Assembly: GCF_007747215.1 (NCBI RefSeq)
Contig: NZ_CP036273.1
Location: 930,001-994,000 of the forward strand
Reading direction: 5' to 3'
Length of the DNA: 64,000 nt
Origin: Urbifossiella limnaea
GTDB lineage: Bacteria; Planctomycetota; Planctomycetia; Gemmatales; Gemmataceae
Position 1 is the first letter of the stretch, and every line of letters starts with the position of its first letter. Shown piece by piece: positions 4,276 to 61,061 of this stretch. A program made the translations under genes and the position numbers. Under the pieces are notes generated by a model. It was not told the DNA's origin. It ran no database searches and saw nothing but the letters and a program-made list of their open reading frames with translations.

Positions 4276-5442
4276 ATGGGCCGCATCTGGGACGTGGTCC
4301 GCCGCATCGCCACCGGCGACAACTCCCCGCCGCCGGACCTCGACGCCACCCTCACGCAACTCCGCGCCCGCACCCCCGCCCCCGTCTTCTGGCTCCTGGG
4401 CAAAACCCAGTCCGGCAAGACCAGCATCACCCGCTTCCTCACCGGCGCCGACGACGCCGTCATCGGCAGCGGCTACCGCCCGTGCACCAAGACCTCGCGC
4501 AAGTTCCAGTTCCCCACGCCCGACGCCCCGCTGATGGAGTTCCTCGACACCCGCGGCGTCGACGAACCCGGCTACGACCCGGCCGAGGACGTCGCCGCGT
4601 TCGACCCCGTGGCCCACGTCGTCGTCGTCACCGCGAAGGCCACCGACTTCGCGCAGGGGAACGTCCGCGCGGGGCTGGAGCCGATCCGCCGGGCGAACCC
4701 GTCGCGGCCCGTGATCCTGTGCGTGACGTGCCTGAACGAGGCGATCCCGCGGCAGCCGCACCCGCCGTACGGGAAGTGGGAGGAGTACGAGCCGCTGCGG
4801 CGGGCCATCGAGGAGCACACGCGGGCGTTCGCCGGGCTGTTCGACGTGTGCGTGCCGATCGACCTGACCCGGCCCGACGACGGCTTCCCCGAGCCGAACT
4901 ACGGCGGCGAGGCACTGAAGGCGGCGCTGCTCGCGTCGCTGCCGGGGGCGTACCGGCAGACGCTGGTACAGTTGAAGGAAGCGACGGACGCGCTGAAGGA
5001 CGTTCACCTCCGCCACGCGGTGCCGGTTATCCTGGGCTACGCCTCGATGGCGGCCAGCGCCGGGGCGGTGCCGGTGCCGTTCCTCGACCTGCTCATCATC
5101 CCGGGCATCCAGAGCCGGATGGTGACGCACCTGGCGGCCATGTACGGCCAGCCAATGACGCCGGAGCGGTACAAGGAGGTGGCCGCGTCACTGGGGGCGG
5201 GGCTGGTGGCCCGGCAGGCGGTGCGCGAGATCACGAAGCTGATCCCGTACGTGGGGTCGGTGGCCGGCGCGGCGGTGGCGTGGGCCAGCACGTACGCCCT
5301 GGGGCGGGCCTTCTGCTACTACTACCAGGCGGTGTGCGAGGGGCACGTCCCCGACACGCAGACGCTGCGGCGGGTGTACCACGAGCAGTACAGCGCCGCG
5401 GAAGGGACGTGGCGCTCGGACCAGGTGAAACGAACCCCGTGA
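4276..5442 (+). CDS. Membrane-associated GTPase with C-terminal DUF697-like domain
   Basis: 388 residues. The Walker A / G1 motif is GKTQSGKTS (42-50) and G3 is DTRG (91-94). The usual NKxD is not clear: the sequence there reads V-T-C-L-N-E-A. Residues ~243-350 form two hydrophobic stretches (around L-D-L-L-I-I-P-G and Y-V-G-S-V-A-G-A-A-V-A-W) with an intervening amphipathic part, as in the DUF697 domain that tethers Era/YcjF-type GTPases to membranes. ATG 4276 has a strong GGGGAGGAG ribosome site 5 nt upstream; an in-frame GTG at 4258 overlaps that site and is unlikely. The stop codon (5440-5442) touches the large inverted repeat at 5441. It probably works with the neighbouring GTPase and kinase-tubulin protein, but this is inference. 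Confidence 0.8.
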   Translation: MGRIWDVVRRIATGDNSPPPDLDATLTQLRARTPAPVFWLLGKTQSGKTSITRFLTGADDAVIGSGYRPCTKTSRKFQFPTPDAPLMEFLDTRGVDEPGYDPAEDVAAFDPVAHVVVVTAKATDFAQGNVRAGLEPIRRANPSRPVILCVTCLNEAIPRQPHPPYGKWEEYEPLRRAIEEHTRAFAGLFDVCVPIDLTRPDDGFPEPNYGGEALKAALLASLPGAYRQTLVQLKEATDALKDVHLRHAVPVILGYASMAASAGAVPVPFLDLLIIPGIQSRMVTHLAAMYGQPMTPERYKEVAASLGAGLVARQAVREITKLIPYVGSVAGAAVAWASTYALGRAFCYYYQAVCEGHVPDTQTLRRVYHEQYSAAEGTWRSDQVKRTP

Positions 5443-5525
5443 AGGGGTGAAGGGGTGAAGGGGTGAAGGGGTGACGAAAGCCGCTCGGTCGTCACCCCTT
5501 CACCCCTTCACCCCTTCACCCCTTC
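5441..5525. repeat. Perfect 37-bp inverted repeat built from GAAGGGGT units
   Basis: The left arm 5441-5477 is four tandem copies of GAAGGGGT plus GACGA. The right arm 5489-5525 is its exact reverse complement. The loop is 11 nt (5478-5488). The first GTPase gene ends at its left edge with a TGA overlapping the arm. In RNA this would be a very stable hairpin, possibly a terminator or processing signal between the two GTPase genes, although no U-run follows. Confidence 0.9.
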
Positions 5526-5556
5526 GCGGCGCTCCCGGTGCAATCGGAGGGTGCCC

Positions 5557-7708: not shown

Positions 7709-7722
7709 CGCTTCCCCCGTGG

Positions 7723-7817
7723 CGGAATGACCAATTTCCAAGGACCCACCAATGACCAAGGACAGAACTCACTGTCTTCTTTGGTCATTGGTGGGTCATT
7801 GGTCCTTGGTCATTCCG
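7723..7817. repeat. Inverted repeat of the AATGACCAAGGACC family
   Basis: Left arm 7723-7765 and right arm 7772-7817 are imperfect reverse complements; the outer CGGAATGACCAA and an inner ACCCACCAATGACCAA block match exactly. The right arm contains the last codons and TGA of the aminotransferase gene on the minus strand. A related hairpin lies at 12454-12533. Confidence 0.8.
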
Positions 7818-8941
7818 CGGACCGCGGCGACGAACCGATCGATCTCGCCTTCATTGTTGTAACCGTGCGGGCTGACCCGCACGCGGCCGGCTCGGGCGTT
7901 CACGATCACGCCGGCCGCCCGGCACGCCGCTACAACCGCTTCCGCCGGCACGCCCGGCACCGTCAGCGACACGATCCCCGACGCCTCCCCCGGCCGCCGG
8001 CTCGAATACACGTCCCATCCCGCCGCAGTCGCCTTCTCGCTTAGGTAGTCGGTCAGCTCCAGCACTCGCGCCTGAAGGGCCGGGACGCCCGCGTTCAGCA
8101 ACAGCTCCAGGCTGGCGCCGAAGGCGGTGATGCCGGGGACGTTCAGCGCCCCGCCCTCCCACCGGCCGGCGTGCGGCTTCAGCGTGAAGTCGATCGTGCT
8201 GAACTCCAGCGGCCGCGCCACGCTGAACGCCCCCACGCCGATCGGGTGGAGCCGGTCCACCCACTCGCGCCGCACGTAGCCGAAGCCGGCGCCCTCGGGG
8301 CCGAGCATCCACTTGTGGCCGTCGGCCGCGAGCGCGTCAATGGGCGAGCGCTGCACGTCGATGGGGAACGCGCCGAGCGCCTGGATGGCGTCCACGAAAA
8401 AGAACACGCCGCGCTCGCGGCACAGCTCGCCGAGCGCGTCCAGGTCGGCGCGGAAGCCGGTGGCGAACTGCACCGCCGACACCGCCAACAGGCGCGTCCG
8501 GCCGTCCACCGCCGCGCGCAGGTCGTCGGGCAGCACCCGACCGGCGCGCGTGGGCACGCGGCGGGCCTCGACGCCGCGGCCGGCGAGGTTCAGCCACGGG
8601 TACTGGTTCGCCGGGTACTCGTCGGCCGGGAAGACGACGTTGTCGCCGCTCCGCCACGGGAAGCCTTCCGCGATCACGCCGATGCCGTGCGTGGTGCTGG
8701 GGACGAAGAACACGTCGTCGGCGCTCGGGGCGTTGACAAGCCGGCGGGCGAGCTCGCGCACCTCGCGGACGCGGTGCGTCCAGTCGCGGACGGCAGCGAT
8801 GCCGTTCGCGGCGAGGCTGGCGCCATACTCGTGCAGCGCCGCGACCGCCACGTCCGGCAGCGGCGCGACGGCGGCGTGGTCGAGGAACGCCCAGTGCCCG
8901 GTGACCGGGAAGTGCGAGCGGAACGCGGCCCGGTCCATCAT
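7796..8941 (-). CDS. Class V (Csd/NifS-fold) PLP-dependent aminotransferase-like enzyme
   Basis: 381 residues. The N-terminal L-D-H-A-A-V-A-P motif, the central V-D-A-I-Q-A-L-G cofactor-binding motif and the PLP lysine in A-D-G-H-K-W-M place it in the cysteine desulfurase / isopenicillin epimerase fold. The family covers desulfurases, selenocysteine lyases and epimerases, and the exact reaction cannot be fixed here. A distant paralogue lies at 55190-56311. A GGGAGGGG ribosome site precedes two adjacent ATGs at 8941 and 8938. The last residues (G-M-T-K-D-Q) are encoded by the inverted repeat at 7796-7817, so the element has supplied the end of the protein. Confidence 0.85.
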   Translation of the reverse strand: MMDRAAFRSHFPVTGHWAFLDHAAVAPLPDVAVAALHEYGASLAANGIAAVRDWTHRVREVRELARRLVNAPSADDVFFVPSTTHGIGVIAEGFPWRSGDNVVFPADEYPANQYPWLNLAGRGVEARRVPTRAGRVLPDDLRAAVDGRTRLLAVSAVQFATGFRADLDALGELCRERGVFFFVDAIQALGAFPIDVQRSPIDALAADGHKWMLGPEGAGFGYVRREWVDRLHPIGVGAFSVARPLEFSTIDFTLKPHAGRWEGGALNVPGITAFGASLELLLNAGVPALQARVLELTDYLSEKATAAGWDVYSSRRPGEASGIVSLTVPGVPAEAVVAACRAAGVIVNARAGRVRVSPHGYNNEGEIDRFVAAVRGMTKDQ

Positions 8942-9749: not shown

Positions 9750-9837
9750 AAGGATGAAGGATGAAGGATGAAGGATGAATCCGAGTCGGCGGCCGCCGGC
9801 GTCTTGATTCATCCTTCATCCTTCATCCTTCATCCTT
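9750..9837. repeat. Perfect 32-bp inverted repeat of ATGAAGG units
   Basis: Arms 9750-9781 and 9806-9837 are exact reverse complements made of four GGATGAA-type units. The 24-nt loop itself holds the palindrome CGGCGGCCGCCG. It fills the gap between the protease gene and trpE, 9 nt before the trpE ATG. Confidence 0.9.
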
Positions 9838-13789: not shown

Positions 13790-13893
13790 GGCGAACGGCC
13801 GGCGTCAGCCGGCTGGTGGCGACACGGTCGCCTGTGGGGTCATCCCCTAACCGGTCGGCGCAACGACCCGCCGGCTGACGCCGGCCGTTCGCC
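13790..13893. repeat. Perfect 24-bp inverted repeat (GCGAACGGCCGGCGTCAGCC arms)
   Basis: Arms 13790-13813 and 13870-13893 are exact reverse complements, with a 56-nt loop containing CGACACGGTCGCC. Each arm holds its own small palindrome GCCGGCTGACGCCGGC. A related single arm occurs at 430-454. It fills the gap between the AsmA-like gene and the permease gene. Confidence 0.85.
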
Positions 13894-13896
13894 GGG

Positions 13897-23725: not shown

Positions 23726-23790
23726 GTTAGGCTGGGGCGCAAGCCCCGTCGGGCGTCCGAACCCCGACGGGGCTTGCGCCCCGGCCTAAC
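23726..23790. repeat. REP-like inverted pair, copy R1 of the transposase-linked family
   Basis: A 65-nt element starting GTTAGGCTGGGGCGCAAGCC and ending with its reverse complement. Each arm is a GTTAGG head followed by a GGGGC-GCAA-GCCCC hairpin. It lies between convergent stops at 23661 and 23821. Other copies: 56337, 56882 and 60997. Confidence 0.85.
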
Positions 23791-39547: not shown

Positions 39548-39630
39548 AGTGGGCAGTGGGCAGTGGGCAGTGGGCAGTTAAGACCAGAGCCGGGTGCTAA
39601 CTGCCCACTGCCCACTGCTCACTGCCCACT
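39548..39630. repeat. 33-bp inverted repeat of AGTGGGC units
   Basis: Arms 39548-39580 and 39598-39630 pair with one mismatch. The left arm is four AGTGGGC units plus AGTTA. The dtd stop codon and its last three codons (S-G-Q) lie in the right arm. It sits between dtd and livK on the same strand. Confidence 0.88.
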
Positions 39631-45397: not shown

Positions 45398-46534
45398 ATG
45401 AGACCTCGCGGCGTGGCGGTGGCGGGCACCGGGTTCATCGGCCCGGTCCACGTCGAGGCGGTGCGGCGGCTCGGGCACCGTGTCGTCGGTGTGCTCGGCT
45501 CCACGCCGGCGAAGGGCCGCGCCGCGGCCGACGCCCTCGGCGTGCCGGTCGCCTACGATTCGCTGGCCGCGCTGCTCGCCGACCCGGCCGTCGAGGTGGT
45601 TCATCTGGCGACGCCGAACCGCGCCCACTTCGCGCAGGCGCAGGCGGTTCTCGAAGCGGGCAAGCACGTCGTCGTCGAGAAGCCGCTGGCGATGACCGGC
45701 GCCGAGACGGCGGAGCTCGTGCGGCTGGCGGCGGCGCGGCCCGGGCAGGTGGCGGCGGTGAACTACAACGTCCGCTTCTACCCGCTGTGCCTCGACGCCC
45801 GCGAACGGGTCCGCGCCGGCGAGATCGGCGACGTGCTGCACGTCACCGGCTCGTACCTCCAGGACTGGCTGCTGTACCCGACCGACTTCAACTGGCGCGT
45901 CCTGGCCGCGGACGGCGGCGACCTGCGGGCCGTCGCCGACATCGGCACCCACTGGCTGGATTTGGTTTGCTTCATCACCGGGCTCGAAATCGAGGCCGTG
46001 TGCGCCGACCTGCGGACCGTGTACCCCGTGCGGCAGAAGCCGCTCGGCGGCAGCGAGACGTTCACCGGCTCCGCGGGGCAGGGGGGCGAGTCGGTGGCTG
46101 TGACGACCGAGGACTACGGGTCTATACTGCTCCGCTTCAAGGGCGGCGCCCGCGGCTGCGTGACGGTGTCGCAGGTGACGGCGGGGCGGAAGAACTGTCT
46201 GCGCTTCGACCTGGCCAGGACCAAGGTGTCACTGGCGTGGGACAGCGAGGAGCCGAACGTGCTGCACGTCGGGCACCGCGGCAAGTCGAACGAGTGCGTG
46301 GGCCGCGACCCGGGGCAGCTGGCGGCCGCGGCGCGGCGGTTCAGCGACTACCCCGGGGGCCACGCGGAGGGCTTCCCCGACTCGCACAAGCAGCTGTTTC
46401 GCGCCGCCTACGCGGCCATCGACGGCGACGCGGGGCCGTACCCGACGTTCGCCGACGGCCACCGCGAGGTGGTGGTGTGTGAGGCCGTATTGCGGAGTAG
46501 CCGGACGGGGTCGTGGGAACGGGTCGCGGAATGA
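45398..46534 (+). CDS. Gfo/Idh/MocA-family NAD(P)-dependent dehydrogenase
   Basis: 378 residues. The Rossmann start reads V-A-V-A-G-T-G-F-I-G-P-V-H, followed by H-V-V-V-E-K-P-L-A-M (EKP motif) and D-I-G-T-H-W-L-D-L (the catalytic-His block of the family). A GGGAG site precedes ATG 45398. Sugar or inositol oxidation is likely; the substrate is not known. Its TGA stop (46532-46534) is supplied by the left arm of the inverted repeat at 46529. Confidence 0.87.
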   Translation: MRPRGVAVAGTGFIGPVHVEAVRRLGHRVVGVLGSTPAKGRAAADALGVPVAYDSLAALLADPAVEVVHLATPNRAHFAQAQAVLEAGKHVVVEKPLAMTGAETAELVRLAAARPGQVAAVNYNVRFYPLCLDARERVRAGEIGDVLHVTGSYLQDWLLYPTDFNWRVLAADGGDLRAVADIGTHWLDLVCFITGLEIEAVCADLRTVYPVRQKPLGGSETFTGSAGQGGESVAVTTEDYGSILLRFKGGARGCVTVSQVTAGRKNCLRFDLARTKVSLAWDSEEPNVLHVGHRGKSNECVGRDPGQLAAAARRFSDYPGGHAEGFPDSHKQLFRAAYAAIDGDAGPYPTFADGHREVVVCEAVLRSSRTGSWERVAE

Positions 46535-46600
46535 CGAAGGACGAAGGACGAATGACAGAACCAGGCCGGTTCGTCATTCGTCCTTCGTCCTTCGTCATTC
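46529..46600. repeat. Perfect 28-bp inverted repeat of GACGAAG units, carrying both flanking stop codons
   Basis: Arms 46529-46556 and 46573-46600 are exact reverse complements. TGA in the left arm ends the MocA-type gene; the symmetric TGA in the right arm ends pyrF on the other strand. The 16-nt loop is GC-rich. It probably terminates both transcripts. Confidence 0.92.
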
Positions 46601-56336: not shown

Positions 56337-56409
56337 GTTAGGCCGGGGCGCAAGCCCCGGCGGGTGATCGGGCGCGAACCCGCCGACGGGGCTTGCGCCC
56401 CGGCCTAAC
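56337..56409. repeat. REP-like inverted pair, copy R2
   Basis: 73-nt inverted pair beginning GTTAGGCCGGGGCGCAAGCC. Each arm is a GTTAGG head plus a GGGGC-GCAA-GCCCC hairpin with a GCAA tetraloop. It borders the 3' end of the transposase gene and the start of the class V aminotransferase gene. Confidence 0.88.
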
Positions 56410-56863
56410 GGGTGTCCTGTCCGTCGAGCACGTACGCGATCACCTCAGCCAGTGCCCGGTCGTCGTCGATGTACTCGTCCCAGCCGCGCTCGGTCCACCA
56501 CCTCTCGCGGACGACCTCGGAGGCGGCCTTCAACCGGCGCGTACACCAGGACTTGAACTGCTCGCGCGGCTGCTCGATCGGCCGGCCCCGCGCGGTGACC
56601 ACGACGTGAACGTGGTTGCTCCGGCAGTTCACCGCGTGCAGTTGCCACTTCCGGACGGCGCAGTGGTCGGCGATCGTCTGCTCGACGAGCCGGCGCTGGT
56701 CCGCGTCGAGAACCAGTGGTGCTTCGGCCAGTTCCGCGAGAGATTCGCGGTGCGCCACGGGATCCGGCGCGTGGCTCCCGCCGCCTCGGAGGAACGAGCC
56801 ACGGGGGTCGCCGTGCAGCCAGGTGCCGTAGGTCGTCCACGTCGAAAAGTAGGCGATCGCCAT
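56405..56863 (-). CDS. REP-associated tyrosine transposase (RAYT, Y1_Tnp/HUH family)
   Basis: 152 residues. The HUH-type metal motif is N-H-V-H-V-V-V (His84, His86). The likely catalytic Tyr is Tyr144 in A-E-V-I-A-Y-V-L-D-G-Q. T-W-T-T-Y-G-T-W-L-H-G-D-P-R-G is the family start. ATG 56863 gives this N-terminus; upstream in-frame codons run into element R3. RAYT proteins cut and join single-stranded DNA at REP palindromes and are often domesticated. It is intact, so activity is possible. Confidence 0.85.
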   Translation of the reverse strand: MAIAYFSTWTTYGTWLHGDPRGSFLRGGGSHAPDPVAHRESLAELAEAPLVLDADQRRLVEQTIADHCAVRKWQLHAVNCRSNHVHVVVTARGRPIEQPREQFKSWCTRRLKAASEVVRERWWTERGWDEYIDDDRALAEVIAYVLDGQDTR

Positions 56864-56881
56864 GACCGCGTCCTTCCACTC

Positions 56882-56954
56882 GTTAGGCCGGGGCGCAAGC
56901 CCCGTCGGGCGATCGGCCGCGAACCCACCGACGGGGCTTGCGCCCCGGCCTAAC
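56882..56954. repeat. REP-like inverted pair, copy R3
   Basis: 73 nt, same design as R2 and nearly identical to it, 19 nt upstream of the transposase start and 4 nt from the stop of the FAD oxidoreductase gene. Confidence 0.88.
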
Positions 56955-58598: not shown

Positions 58599-60947
58599 CT
58601 ACTTCCGCGGCTCGATGACGCCGCCGTCGTGCTCGATGCGGCACCCGGGCACGGCGGCGTGGAATGCGGCAAGGCCCGCCGCCGTCACCTTTGCTCCTTT
58701 CACGACGAGGTGCTGCAGGGCCTTGCAGTCCGTGAACGGGGCCAGCCCCGCGTCCGTCACCTTCGTGGCGTCCAGCCAGAGGGTTGTCAGGCCTTTGCAG
58801 TCCTTGAAGTGGGCCAGCCCCGCGTCCGTCACCCCGGTGCCGTTCAGGCAGAGGCTCTGCAGCCCCTTGCAGTCCTTGACGTGGGCCAGCCCCGCGTCCG
58901 TCACCCCCGTGCCGTTCAGCCACAGGTCCGTCAGGCCTTTGCAGTCCTTGAAGTGAGCCAGCCCCGCGTCCGTCACCTTCGTGGCGTCCAGGCGGAGGAC
59001 GGTCAGGCCTTTGCAGTCGCTGAATTGCGCCAGCCCGTTGTCCGTCACCTTCGTGCTAATCAGGTTGAGGGCCGTCAGCCCCTTGCACTCCTTGAAGACG
59101 GCCAGGCCCTGCTCCGTCACCCCCGTCTCGCCCAGGCTCAAGACCGTGAGCCCCTTGCAGTCCTTGAAGTGCGCCACCCCCGCGTCCGTCGCCCGGGTGC
59201 CGAATAGGTCGAGGGCCGTGAGCCCTTTGCAGTCCTTGAAGTGCGCCAGCCCCGCGTCCGTCACTGGCGTGTTCAGGAGGCTGAGTTTCGTGAGCCCCTT
59301 GCAGTCCTTGAAGTGAGCCAAACCCGCGTCCGTGAGTTGCGCGTTGCCCCCCAGGCCGAGGTGTGTGAGCCCCTTGCAGTCCTTGAAGTAGGCCAGCCCC
59401 GCGGCCGTCACCGGCGAGTTCCCCAGGTCGATCCACGTCAGCCCCTTGCAGCCCTTGAAGTTCGCCAGCCCCGCGTCCGTCACCTTCGGGCCGCCCAGGT
59501 TGATCAGGGTCAGGGTGAATCGCTCTTTCGGCAGGTCGGCCGCGGCCAGGAAGTCGCGGTTGTGACCGTCGATCCACACGACGCCGCCGACCGACACGAC
59601 GTACTCGGCGGCCGCGCGATCCGGGTCGCCGGCGGCGGCCGGCGCTTTGACGGTGGGGCCGACCTGCGCGAGCGTCTTGCCGGCCTTGTCCTTCACCGTC
59701 ACGGTGGCGCCGTCGGGCACCTCGATCCAGGTCTCGGTCCCGTCCTTGTTGCGGATGACGATGACGACGCCGCCGAGCGCCAGCAGCACCATGCCGGCGA
59801 ACCCGGCCGCGGCCCACAGCCACCGCCCGGCGGGCTTCCGCCCCACCGGCGCCGCCACGGGCACCGCGGCGGGTTCCAGCTCCGTCGCGGACGCGTCCAG
59901 GTCGGCGAACGGGTTGGCGTCGGGCACCGCCGTCACCTGGATCGGCACGTACACCACCTGCGACACCGCGGGCGCAGCCGCCGCAGAAGAAGTCCGCGCC
60001 GCGCCCATCGCCCGAATCCGCTTGACCACCTCGTCGGCCGACGCCGGCCGGGCTCCGACCGACTTGGCGAGCAACTGGTGGATCAACTCGGCGAGCGGTT
60101 CGGGCACGGCCGGGTTCAGGTCGCGCACCGGCGTCGGCTCCTGCGTCCCCAGGGCGATCAGCACCGCCATCGTGTTCGGCCCCTGGAACGGCAGCCGGCC
60201 GGTCACGAGTCGGTACAGCACGGCGCCGAGGCTGAACAGGTCGGTGCGGTGGTCCACCTTCTCGCCGCGGGCCTGCTCCGGGCTCATGTACGCCGGCGTG
60301 CCCACGATCGCGCCGCTCTTGGTCAGCTCGACCTCCGCGTCCACCGGGCGGGCGAGGCCGAAGTCGAGCACTTTGACCCGCCCGGCCGGCGCCTCCAGCC
60401 ACAGGTTGCCGGGCTTCACGTCGCGGTGAACGAGCCCCTGCCGGTGCGCCGCGGCCAGCCCGGCGGCCGCCTCCGCGGCCATCTTCAGTACCTGGGCGGG
60501 GGTGGGGTTCCCCTTCTTCTTCAGGTACTCGTCGAGCGGGTACCCTTCGAGGTACTCCATGGCGATGTACGGCACGCCGTCGCGCTCGTCGGCCTCGTAC
60601 ACGGTGACGACGTTGTCGTGCTTCACCCGCGCGGCGGCGCGGGCCTCGCGGAGGAAGCGCTCCCGCGCGGCGGGGTCGGCGGCGAACTGCGGGAGCATCA
60701 CCTTGAGCGCCAGCCGGCGGTCGAGGCGGGTGTCGATCGCGGCGTAGACGGCGCCCATGCCGCCCTTGCCGAGCTCCTTCACGACGCGGTACGGCCCGAG
60801 GGTGCCGACCTCGCCGGCGGCCGCGGGCGGGCCGAAGCCCGCGGCGGCGCCGGTCGTGGATGCGCCGACGGCGATGGTCTCGTCGACGGCGCTGGGCGCG
60901 GACGGGGCGCTGGTGGCGTCGGTGTGCAGCCGGGCGTGCGGGTTCAT
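58599..60947 (-). CDS. Ser/Thr protein kinase with membrane helix and 12 leucine-rich repeats
   Basis: 782 residues. Kinase domain ~52-315: glycine loop G-K-G-G-M-G-A-V-Y, Lys82, H-R-D-V-K-P-G-N (HRD 174-176), D-F-G at 195-197 and a normal S-P-E-Q. A transmembrane helix (about 375-395) follows a linker. The outer part has a short beta domain and then 12 LRR units of 24 residues with consensus V-T-D-A-G-L-A-H-F-K-D-C-K-G-L-T-x-L-x-L-x-G-T. The outside repeats probably sense a ligand that controls the inner kinase. Start ATG 60947; divergent from the sigma factor gene, with element R4 in between. Confidence 0.9.
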   Translation of the reverse strand: MNPHARLHTDATSAPSAPSAVDETIAVGASTTGAAAGFGPPAAAGEVGTLGPYRVVKELGKGGMGAVYAAIDTRLDRRLALKVMLPQFAADPAARERFLREARAAARVKHDNVVTVYEADERDGVPYIAMEYLEGYPLDEYLKKKGNPTPAQVLKMAAEAAAGLAAAHRQGLVHRDVKPGNLWLEAPAGRVKVLDFGLARPVDAEVELTKSGAIVGTPAYMSPEQARGEKVDHRTDLFSLGAVLYRLVTGRLPFQGPNTMAVLIALGTQEPTPVRDLNPAVPEPLAELIHQLLAKSVGARPASADEVVKRIRAMGAARTSSAAAAPAVSQVVYVPIQVTAVPDANPFADLDASATELEPAAVPVAAPVGRKPAGRWLWAAAGFAGMVLLALGGVVIVIRNKDGTETWIEVPDGATVTVKDKAGKTLAQVGPTVKAPAAAGDPDRAAAEYVVSVGGVVWIDGHNRDFLAAADLPKERFTLTLINLGGPKVTDAGLANFKGCKGLTWIDLGNSPVTAAGLAYFKDCKGLTHLGLGGNAQLTDAGLAHFKDCKGLTKLSLLNTPVTDAGLAHFKDCKGLTALDLFGTRATDAGVAHFKDCKGLTVLSLGETGVTEQGLAVFKECKGLTALNLISTKVTDNGLAQFSDCKGLTVLRLDATKVTDAGLAHFKDCKGLTDLWLNGTGVTDAGLAHVKDCKGLQSLCLNGTGVTDAGLAHFKDCKGLTTLWLDATKVTDAGLAPFTDCKALQHLVVKGAKVTAAGLAAFHAAVPGCRIEHDGGVIEPRK
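58640..59500 (-). repeat. Tandem ~72-bp coding repeats (LRR array)
   Basis: Twelve units, most of 72 bp, encode the leucine-rich repeats of the kinase. Codon-level similarity between units is very high (for example the repeated coding of F-K-D-C-K-G-L-T), which points to recent duplication or gene conversion. Not a CRISPR array: the units are adjacent without spacers and stay in frame. Confidence 0.85.
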
Positions 60948-60996: not shown

Positions 60997-61061
60997 GTTA
61001 GGCCGGGGCGCGAGCCCCGTCGGGGTTCTGACGCCCGCCGGGGCTCGCGTCCCGGCCTAAC
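60997..61061. repeat. REP-like inverted pair, copy R4
   Basis: 65 nt, beginning GTTAGGCCGGGGCGCGAGCC, with the tetraloop changed from GCAA to GCGA. It lies between the divergent kinase and sigma genes, unlike the other copies, which sit at gene 3' ends. Confidence 0.85.

Follow-up and report, generated by a model that had tools for sequence, protein, structure and literature searches.

A probable REPtron in Urbifossiella limnaea: a class 3-like Y1/HUH transposase gene with GTTA-footed REPINs

The window analysed here, a stretch of 64,000 nt (bases 930001-994000 of the genome of Urbifossiella limnaea, hereafter G000, which is complete in one contig of 7,795,793 bp), contains what is very probably a REPtron, that is, a single-copy gene for a RAYT-like Y1/HUH nuclease together with about 53 REPINs that its product would move, now or formerly, in trans. 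We consider it a GTTA variant near class 3 of the TnpA-Y1 proteins. The cassette has the order REPIN - gene - REPIN and fills positions 56337-56954 of the window (618 bp). The features of the window relative to this system are the following:

56405-56863, minus strand: gene of the RAYT-like Y1/HUH transposase, 152 aa (start ATG at 56863, stop TAG at 56405-56407)
56337-56409, no strand assigned: REPIN A, 73 nt (inverted arms 56337-56363 and 56383-56409, spacer of 19 nt)
56882-56954, no strand assigned: REPIN B, 73 nt (arms 56882-56908 and 56928-56954)
56406-56409, minus strand: GTTA foot, putative guide tetranucleotide, of the RAYT-proximal arm of REPIN A
56606-56617, minus strand: codons of the HUH motif NHVH (residues 83-86)
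56432-56434, minus strand: codon of the catalytic Tyr144 (YVLDGQ, Y----Q signature), from family alignments
23726-23790, no strand assigned: solitary REPIN, 65 nt, with no transposase gene near
60997-61061, no strand assigned: solitary REPIN, 65 nt, loop GCGA; the orthologous right flank in the congener G089 has no REPIN

The original prediction, made from the letters of the window, had described a RAYT gene between near-identical 73-nt inverted pairs, and this holds: the two REPINs share 95% identity, and in each of them a 19-nt spacer separates inverted arms of 27 nt. The stop codon TAG of the gene is embedded in the GTTAG foot of the downstream REPIN A, and the start codon lies 18 nt downstream of REPIN B. 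The solitary copies predicted at 23726 and 60997 are also present and without a transposase, but they are 65 nt in length and not 73.

Pfam Y1_Tnp (PF01797) matched the protein with an E value of 1.7e-5 and a score above the gathering score. The RAYT and IS200 models of NCBIfam matched it as well, both below their own cut-offs, which is not surprising for a protein belonging to neither of the two types. Its motifs are NHVH (residues 83-86), WWTERG and YVLDGQ; in the family alignments H84, H86 and Y144 were invariant, N83 and Q149 almost invariant. A sequence search of the PDB gave no match with the single protein as query and, with a profile, a best match of only E 0.13, hence a fold comparison was needed to find a structural match. 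For this we used an AlphaFold model built from 24 sequences (mean pLDDT 90), on which Foldseek and VIA-align gave IS608, ISDra2 and IS200 TnpA as the best fold matches (Z 13-14), with Z 10.6 in VIA-align for the E. coli RAYT 4er8. NHVH, Tyr144, Gln149 and the Y1 fold together make it a Y1 HUH protein with one catalytic tyrosine, as a REPtron has.

A fold nearer to IS608 and ISDra2 TnpA than to RAYT 4er8 is what would be seen if the cassette were an ordinary insertion sequence of the IS200/IS605 type, in which REPIN-gene-REPIN would move as one element and MITE-like deletion would have produced the solitary doublets. The compact cassette, with its stop codon within the foot, and its absence from the orthologous locus of G089 fit this reading too. 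We nevertheless consider it unlikely, since one coding copy stands against about 50 non-coding doublets: the gene is single-copy in G000, where the next match is 32% identical and no decayed copies were found. In addition, each side carries a full inverted doublet instead of a left-end and a right-end hairpin in the same orientation, and the IS200 equivalog model NF033573 gave 25.7 bits against a cut-off of 55. The locus shares with IS608 and ISDra2 the Y1 HUH fold and a guide tetranucleotide, here putative, 5′ of a subterminal hairpin, and differs from these autonomous multicopy elements, with their left and right ends, in having a single gene copy and inverted doublets.

Returning to the REPtron reading, we compared the protein with the published RAYT classes. 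Class 2 has a 5′ GT[AG]G tag and a Y-motif ending in NP, whereas here the foot is GTTA and the motif YVLDGQ. A planctomycete-centred 'class 3' of TnpA-Y1 proteins with high-copy hairpins was described by Quentin et al. 2018 (PMC6006769) on the basis of some two dozen proteins, with the signature Y----Q, and was presented as a possible intermediate between IS200 and RAYT, with which our fold scores agree. The window protein, planctomycete as well, has NHVH, W[TA] and Y----Q in 152 aa (class 3 core about 150-155 aa, with ~155 aa as the length considered), and its gene is likewise flanked by several atypical high-copy hairpins; by published motifs, length and taxon it likely belongs to class 3 at the protein level. 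The hairpins differ, with a GTTA foot throughout the window clade against the reported CnGA and a perfect stem against an interrupted one (PMC6006769). Because the CnGA foot is missing at the locus, we describe it as a GTTA-footed variant near class 3. The nearest named relatives by RAYT include records of Fimbriiglobus (Gemmataceae).

Every arm in the window has the layout GTTAGGCCGGGGC-GCAA-GCCCC with the GTTA foot at its outer end. The original prediction had proposed a genome-wide count of such elements, and we obtained 57 + 61 = 118 arms with at most 3 mismatches, against 1 + 2 = 3 for a reversed-pattern control, an excess well above chance. Almost all of them pair as inverted doublets of 63-76 nt (mode 65), and about 53 more or less intact doublets are present in the chromosome, the two of the cassette included. 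All four doublets of the window fold as full-length hairpins (z = -8 to -12), and their arms have a perfect stem of 6-8 bp. Inverted REPs with outward tags, a constrained spacing and the capacity to form a single hairpin, the properties of a REPIN, are all present in these doublets. The predicted hairpin GGGGC-GCAA-GCCCC was thus found, with the loop GCGA in the copy at 60997, while the predicted head GTTAGG, kept in 96 of 109 arms in G000, has to be shortened to a GTTA tag by comparison with relatives. A reversed polarity of the arm, with an inward CCGA-CGGGGC-TTGC-GCCCCG resembling the CnGA foot of class 3, was ruled out by the relatives, in which the conserved foot, CnGA included, occupies the outer side of the arm.

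The doublets are dispersed between genes in high copy, as expected of the flanking hairpins of a REPtron, here on both sides of the gene. Precisely, 46 of the 53 were intergenic, most between co-directional genes, by a GC-frame heuristic gene call that misplaces at least the copy at 60997, called intragenic though the start codons of divergent genes flank it on both sides. One 126-bp tandem duplication in G000 takes in a doublet with its flanks, and tandem duplications with flanks have been reported for REPINs too (PMC3116915).

On the strand of the foot, the base just outside it is a pyrimidine in ~97% of the G000 arms and the next base in ~80%. TnpAREP enzymes cleave at C|T or CA (PMC8266576), which makes a cut just 5′ of GTTA plausible. 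We infer that the REPINs are mobilised by the RAYT protein, with a single-strand cut-and-paste chemistry borrowed from the characterised TnpAREP and IS608. In single-stranded DNA, for example the lagging-strand template, each arm would fold; a dimer of the protein would read the GTTA foot and the hairpin and cleave via Tyr144 at the pyrimidine-rich site beside the foot; and the excised single-stranded doublet would be pasted at another site.

The window RAYT was matched in 54 of the 95 genomes of the family (E < 1e-8). At about 50 further RAYT loci across Planctomycetota, inverted doublets are present, usually on both sides, with differing sequences and a common design. We considered 63 distinct planctomycete RAYT genes, of which 47 have arms on both sides; the downstream arm, present in 51, has a median distance of 8 nt from the stop codon, and in 27 cases it overlaps the stop or is at most 10 nt away. 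The arms of 28 RAYT-linked loci could be aligned without gaps over 25 columns, giving a common 25-nt arm with a foot NNNA, a G, a stem CCC/CCG/CCT/CAC with the matching GGG/CGG/AGG/GTG, an internal loop and GC-GNNA-GC. Within these 28 arms the stem pair 8-22 is C-G in 15, G-C in 6 and U-A in 2, hence with compensatory changes, and its covariation score was 0.166 against 0.046 for shuffled alignments, a value reached in 0 of 500 shuffles. The window arm retains the common core yet has a perfect stem, like that of one other locus (L162).

The foot varies within this design, with 17 different NNNA feet in 50 loci, among them CTGA, CAGA and CGGA, which are CnGA feet, at other loci of the same RAYT family. 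It changes 22 times on a tree of 61 RAYT proteins, whereas 500 shuffles of the labels gave 34 changes on average and never fewer than 30, and all members of the seven-member clade of the window RAYT (support 99) have GTTA. A relative 64% identical to the window RAYT (L042) shares its foot but has another stem. In the loci compared, therefore, the foot has evolved in step with the RAYT, and this co-evolution is what suggests its putative role as a guide.

The RAYT and REP identity proposed for the locus is borne out by the intact HUH motif and tyrosine, the fold like that of IS608 and RAYT, the REPINs on both sides, the dispersed intergenic copies, a genome with only one RAYT of this kind and a like arrangement in about 50 relatives. 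That copy number would be unrelated to the presence of the RAYT in related genomes had been named as the finding against it. Over 95 genomes abundance tracks the RAYT: at least 10 hits of the arm model were present in 51 of the 65 genomes that have a RAYT, against 8 of the 30 that have none (odds ratio 10, Fisher p = 2e-6, by a statistic that ignores relatedness). Hits were those of a covariance model of the arms, G000 and G089 being entered with pattern counts; model counts saturate at ~82 per genome and miss other arm types, for instance in G012. The exceptions are mostly fragmented assemblies, in which a gene between repeats is easily lost. A one-contig genome of the family, G072, has 27 hits of a class-3-type REP model, and a profile search detected no RAYT in it, so we considered its REPs an orphan population.

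These data also bear on whether the palindromes have been spread or kept for other roles, as terminators, mRNA stabilisers or supercoiling sites, with the RAYT a mere neighbour. Such roles would agree with the position of most copies between co-directional or convergent genes, often tens of bases from a gene end, and with the 8 genomes that are REP-rich without a detected RAYT. They would leave unexplained that the foot and the type of arm follow the phylogeny of the RAYTs, that so many RAYTs have arms on both sides (47/63), that two RAYTs in a single genome go with two REP types and that REP abundance depends on RAYT presence, and we consider this explanation very unlikely.

G000 encodes a second class-3-like RAYT, distant from that of the window, at 6913948-6914532 (L135), with the motifs NHFH and YVLFKQ and the REP GCGAGCCGGGAGCGTGAGCGACCGG on both sides (25 arms in G000); hence there is one full-length RAYT per REP type. 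The same REP has 159 arms in the congener G091, and a variant of it has 52 in G089. A third RAYT, class-2-like, is at 388370-388867 (L041), with DHVH, YIERNP and an upstream palindrome GCCGCTTGCGGCGTAGCGG. Either the second RAYT or an IS transposase might be proposed as the enzyme that moves the window-type doublets, the window RAYT being inactive; the presence of a class-3-like and a class-2-like RAYT in the same genome would allow it, as would the many copies that G089 retains with no detected close RAYT. We regard this as very unlikely, since all the catalytic residues of the window RAYT are intact and a distinct REP of its own stands on either side of the other class-3-like RAYT. Two further loci were examined as candidates. 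At 5649237-5649797, considered as a second copy of the RAYT between two REPINs, the gene is unrelated. The region 6338505-6340077 (L119), considered as a composite element with cargo between single arms, is instead a REPIN that has an IS in its spacer; this IS has an ORF for a transposase of IS4 type, 464 aa in length, and the 9-bp repeat TTCCAGACA on both sides. Insertion sequences targeting REPs are known (PMC1525189).

As regards G089, the nearest congener, we found 75 arms of the window type and detected no close RAYT in its 84%-complete, 770-contig assembly; since it is incomplete and several of its contigs end at REPs, the gene may be missing from the assembly or lost. The genes flanking the RAYT are 84-87% identical between G000 and G089, and at the orthologous site the gap lacks the cassette and holds other palindromes. 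One of these (G089:C211:1835-2076, L136) is a long palindrome that begins with GTAGGTC and ends with GACCTAC; it may be a REPIN from a different family, with the tag GTAG. A GTC extension is present in 77 of 109 G000 arms and in 0 of 48 in G089, and among the G089 sites examined two pairs of doublet sites had flanks common to both genomes, with an uncertain match of the doublets. Lineage-specific doublets at mostly different sites indicate that those of G089 form a distinct subfamily and that the spread came after the split of the two lineages. No exact pair of filled and empty sites fixing an insertion point was obtained between G000 and G089, including at 23726 and 60997, where the orthologous intergenic DNA is too altered.

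We also considered whether the REPINs are nested in another repeat (GGCTGGCCGAATTCCGCAGG), a weak candidate, as the information in the flanks falls after 4 bases. The gapped complementarity of the doublet flanks was at the level of shuffles in G000; in G089 it was 8.1 against 6.4 for shuffled flanks (n = 18), a signal not clear in G000. Some G089 doublets (e.g. L146, L148, L149, L154) lie within longer inverted flanks, as if placed into pre-existing hairpins.

Among known systems, the REPINs of Pseudomonas fluorescens (Bertels and Rainey 2011, PMC3116915) share with those described here the inverted REP doublet with outward tags as the unit, a fixed spacing (GI 16-mers 71 bp apart there, elements of 65/73 nt here), a RAYT beside the doublet type that belongs to it, two or more doublet types in one genome and occasional tandem copies with flanks; they differ in the tag (GTGG/GTAG against GTTA) and in the class of the protein, and here about 53 doublets are intact. 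The TnpAREP-REP systems of E. coli, S. maltophilia and Marinomonas (PMC8266576) likewise have a 5′ tetranucleotide followed by a hairpin, with both bulged and perfect-palindrome REPs and a C|T (or CA) cleavage site partly set by the tetranucleotide. The perfect stem is like the S. maltophilia type in form only, and unlike the window locus, with Y----Q, these systems have a GTAG tag and a Y-motif ending in NP. In TIRtrons, with their TIRYT (Di Nocera et al. 2013, PMC3733652), a tyrosine-transposase gene similarly lies between non-GTAG inverted repeats with dispersed dimers, but those repeats are long and mostly unrelated to one another, whereas one 25-nt arm design recurs here at all loci.

The original prediction had suggested that a planctomycete family with this head and loop may not be described. 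The exact GTTA/GGGGC-GCAA-GCCCC family was indeed not found in the literature searched, but GTAG-type REPs from Planctomycetes (PMC3733652) and class 3 itself (PMC6006769) are already published. Among ~490 planctomycete genomes, the exact REP type reaches high numbers in G000 and G089 alone, and the family is confined to this genus. More broadly, we give about even chances to the view that enzyme-hairpin pairs form a large natural set in Planctomycetota and that their guide tetranucleotide diversified along with the RAYT, the GTTA/perfect-stem pair of the window being a genus-limited branch. If this is true, the GTRG or CnGA tag rule is a property of the first-sampled groups, and tag specificity evolves freely. 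Class 3, earlier set aside as possible intermediates on the way from insertion sequences to domesticated RAYTs, gains a common hairpin design with covariation and, by the loci compared here, a tag that varies along the enzyme tree.

The window also contains repeats of other kinds. Long hairpins at 5432-5534, 7722-7818, 9750-9837, 39548-39630 and 46529-46600 are unlike REPINs, and several of this kind are inverted arrays of 7-8-nt units (AAGGATG, AGTGGGC, GTGAAGGG and others); in the congener G092 one such hairpin, with CAGGTTC units, is at the RAYT-flanking locus. A palindrome family GGCGAACGGCCGGCGTSAGCCGGCTGGT at 424-454, 13790-13820 and 13864-13894 is present also in G089, where the RAYT cassette is absent. 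Finally, about 11 tandem 72-nt units, 76% alike, at 58721-59499 probably encode leucine-rich repeats on the minus strand.
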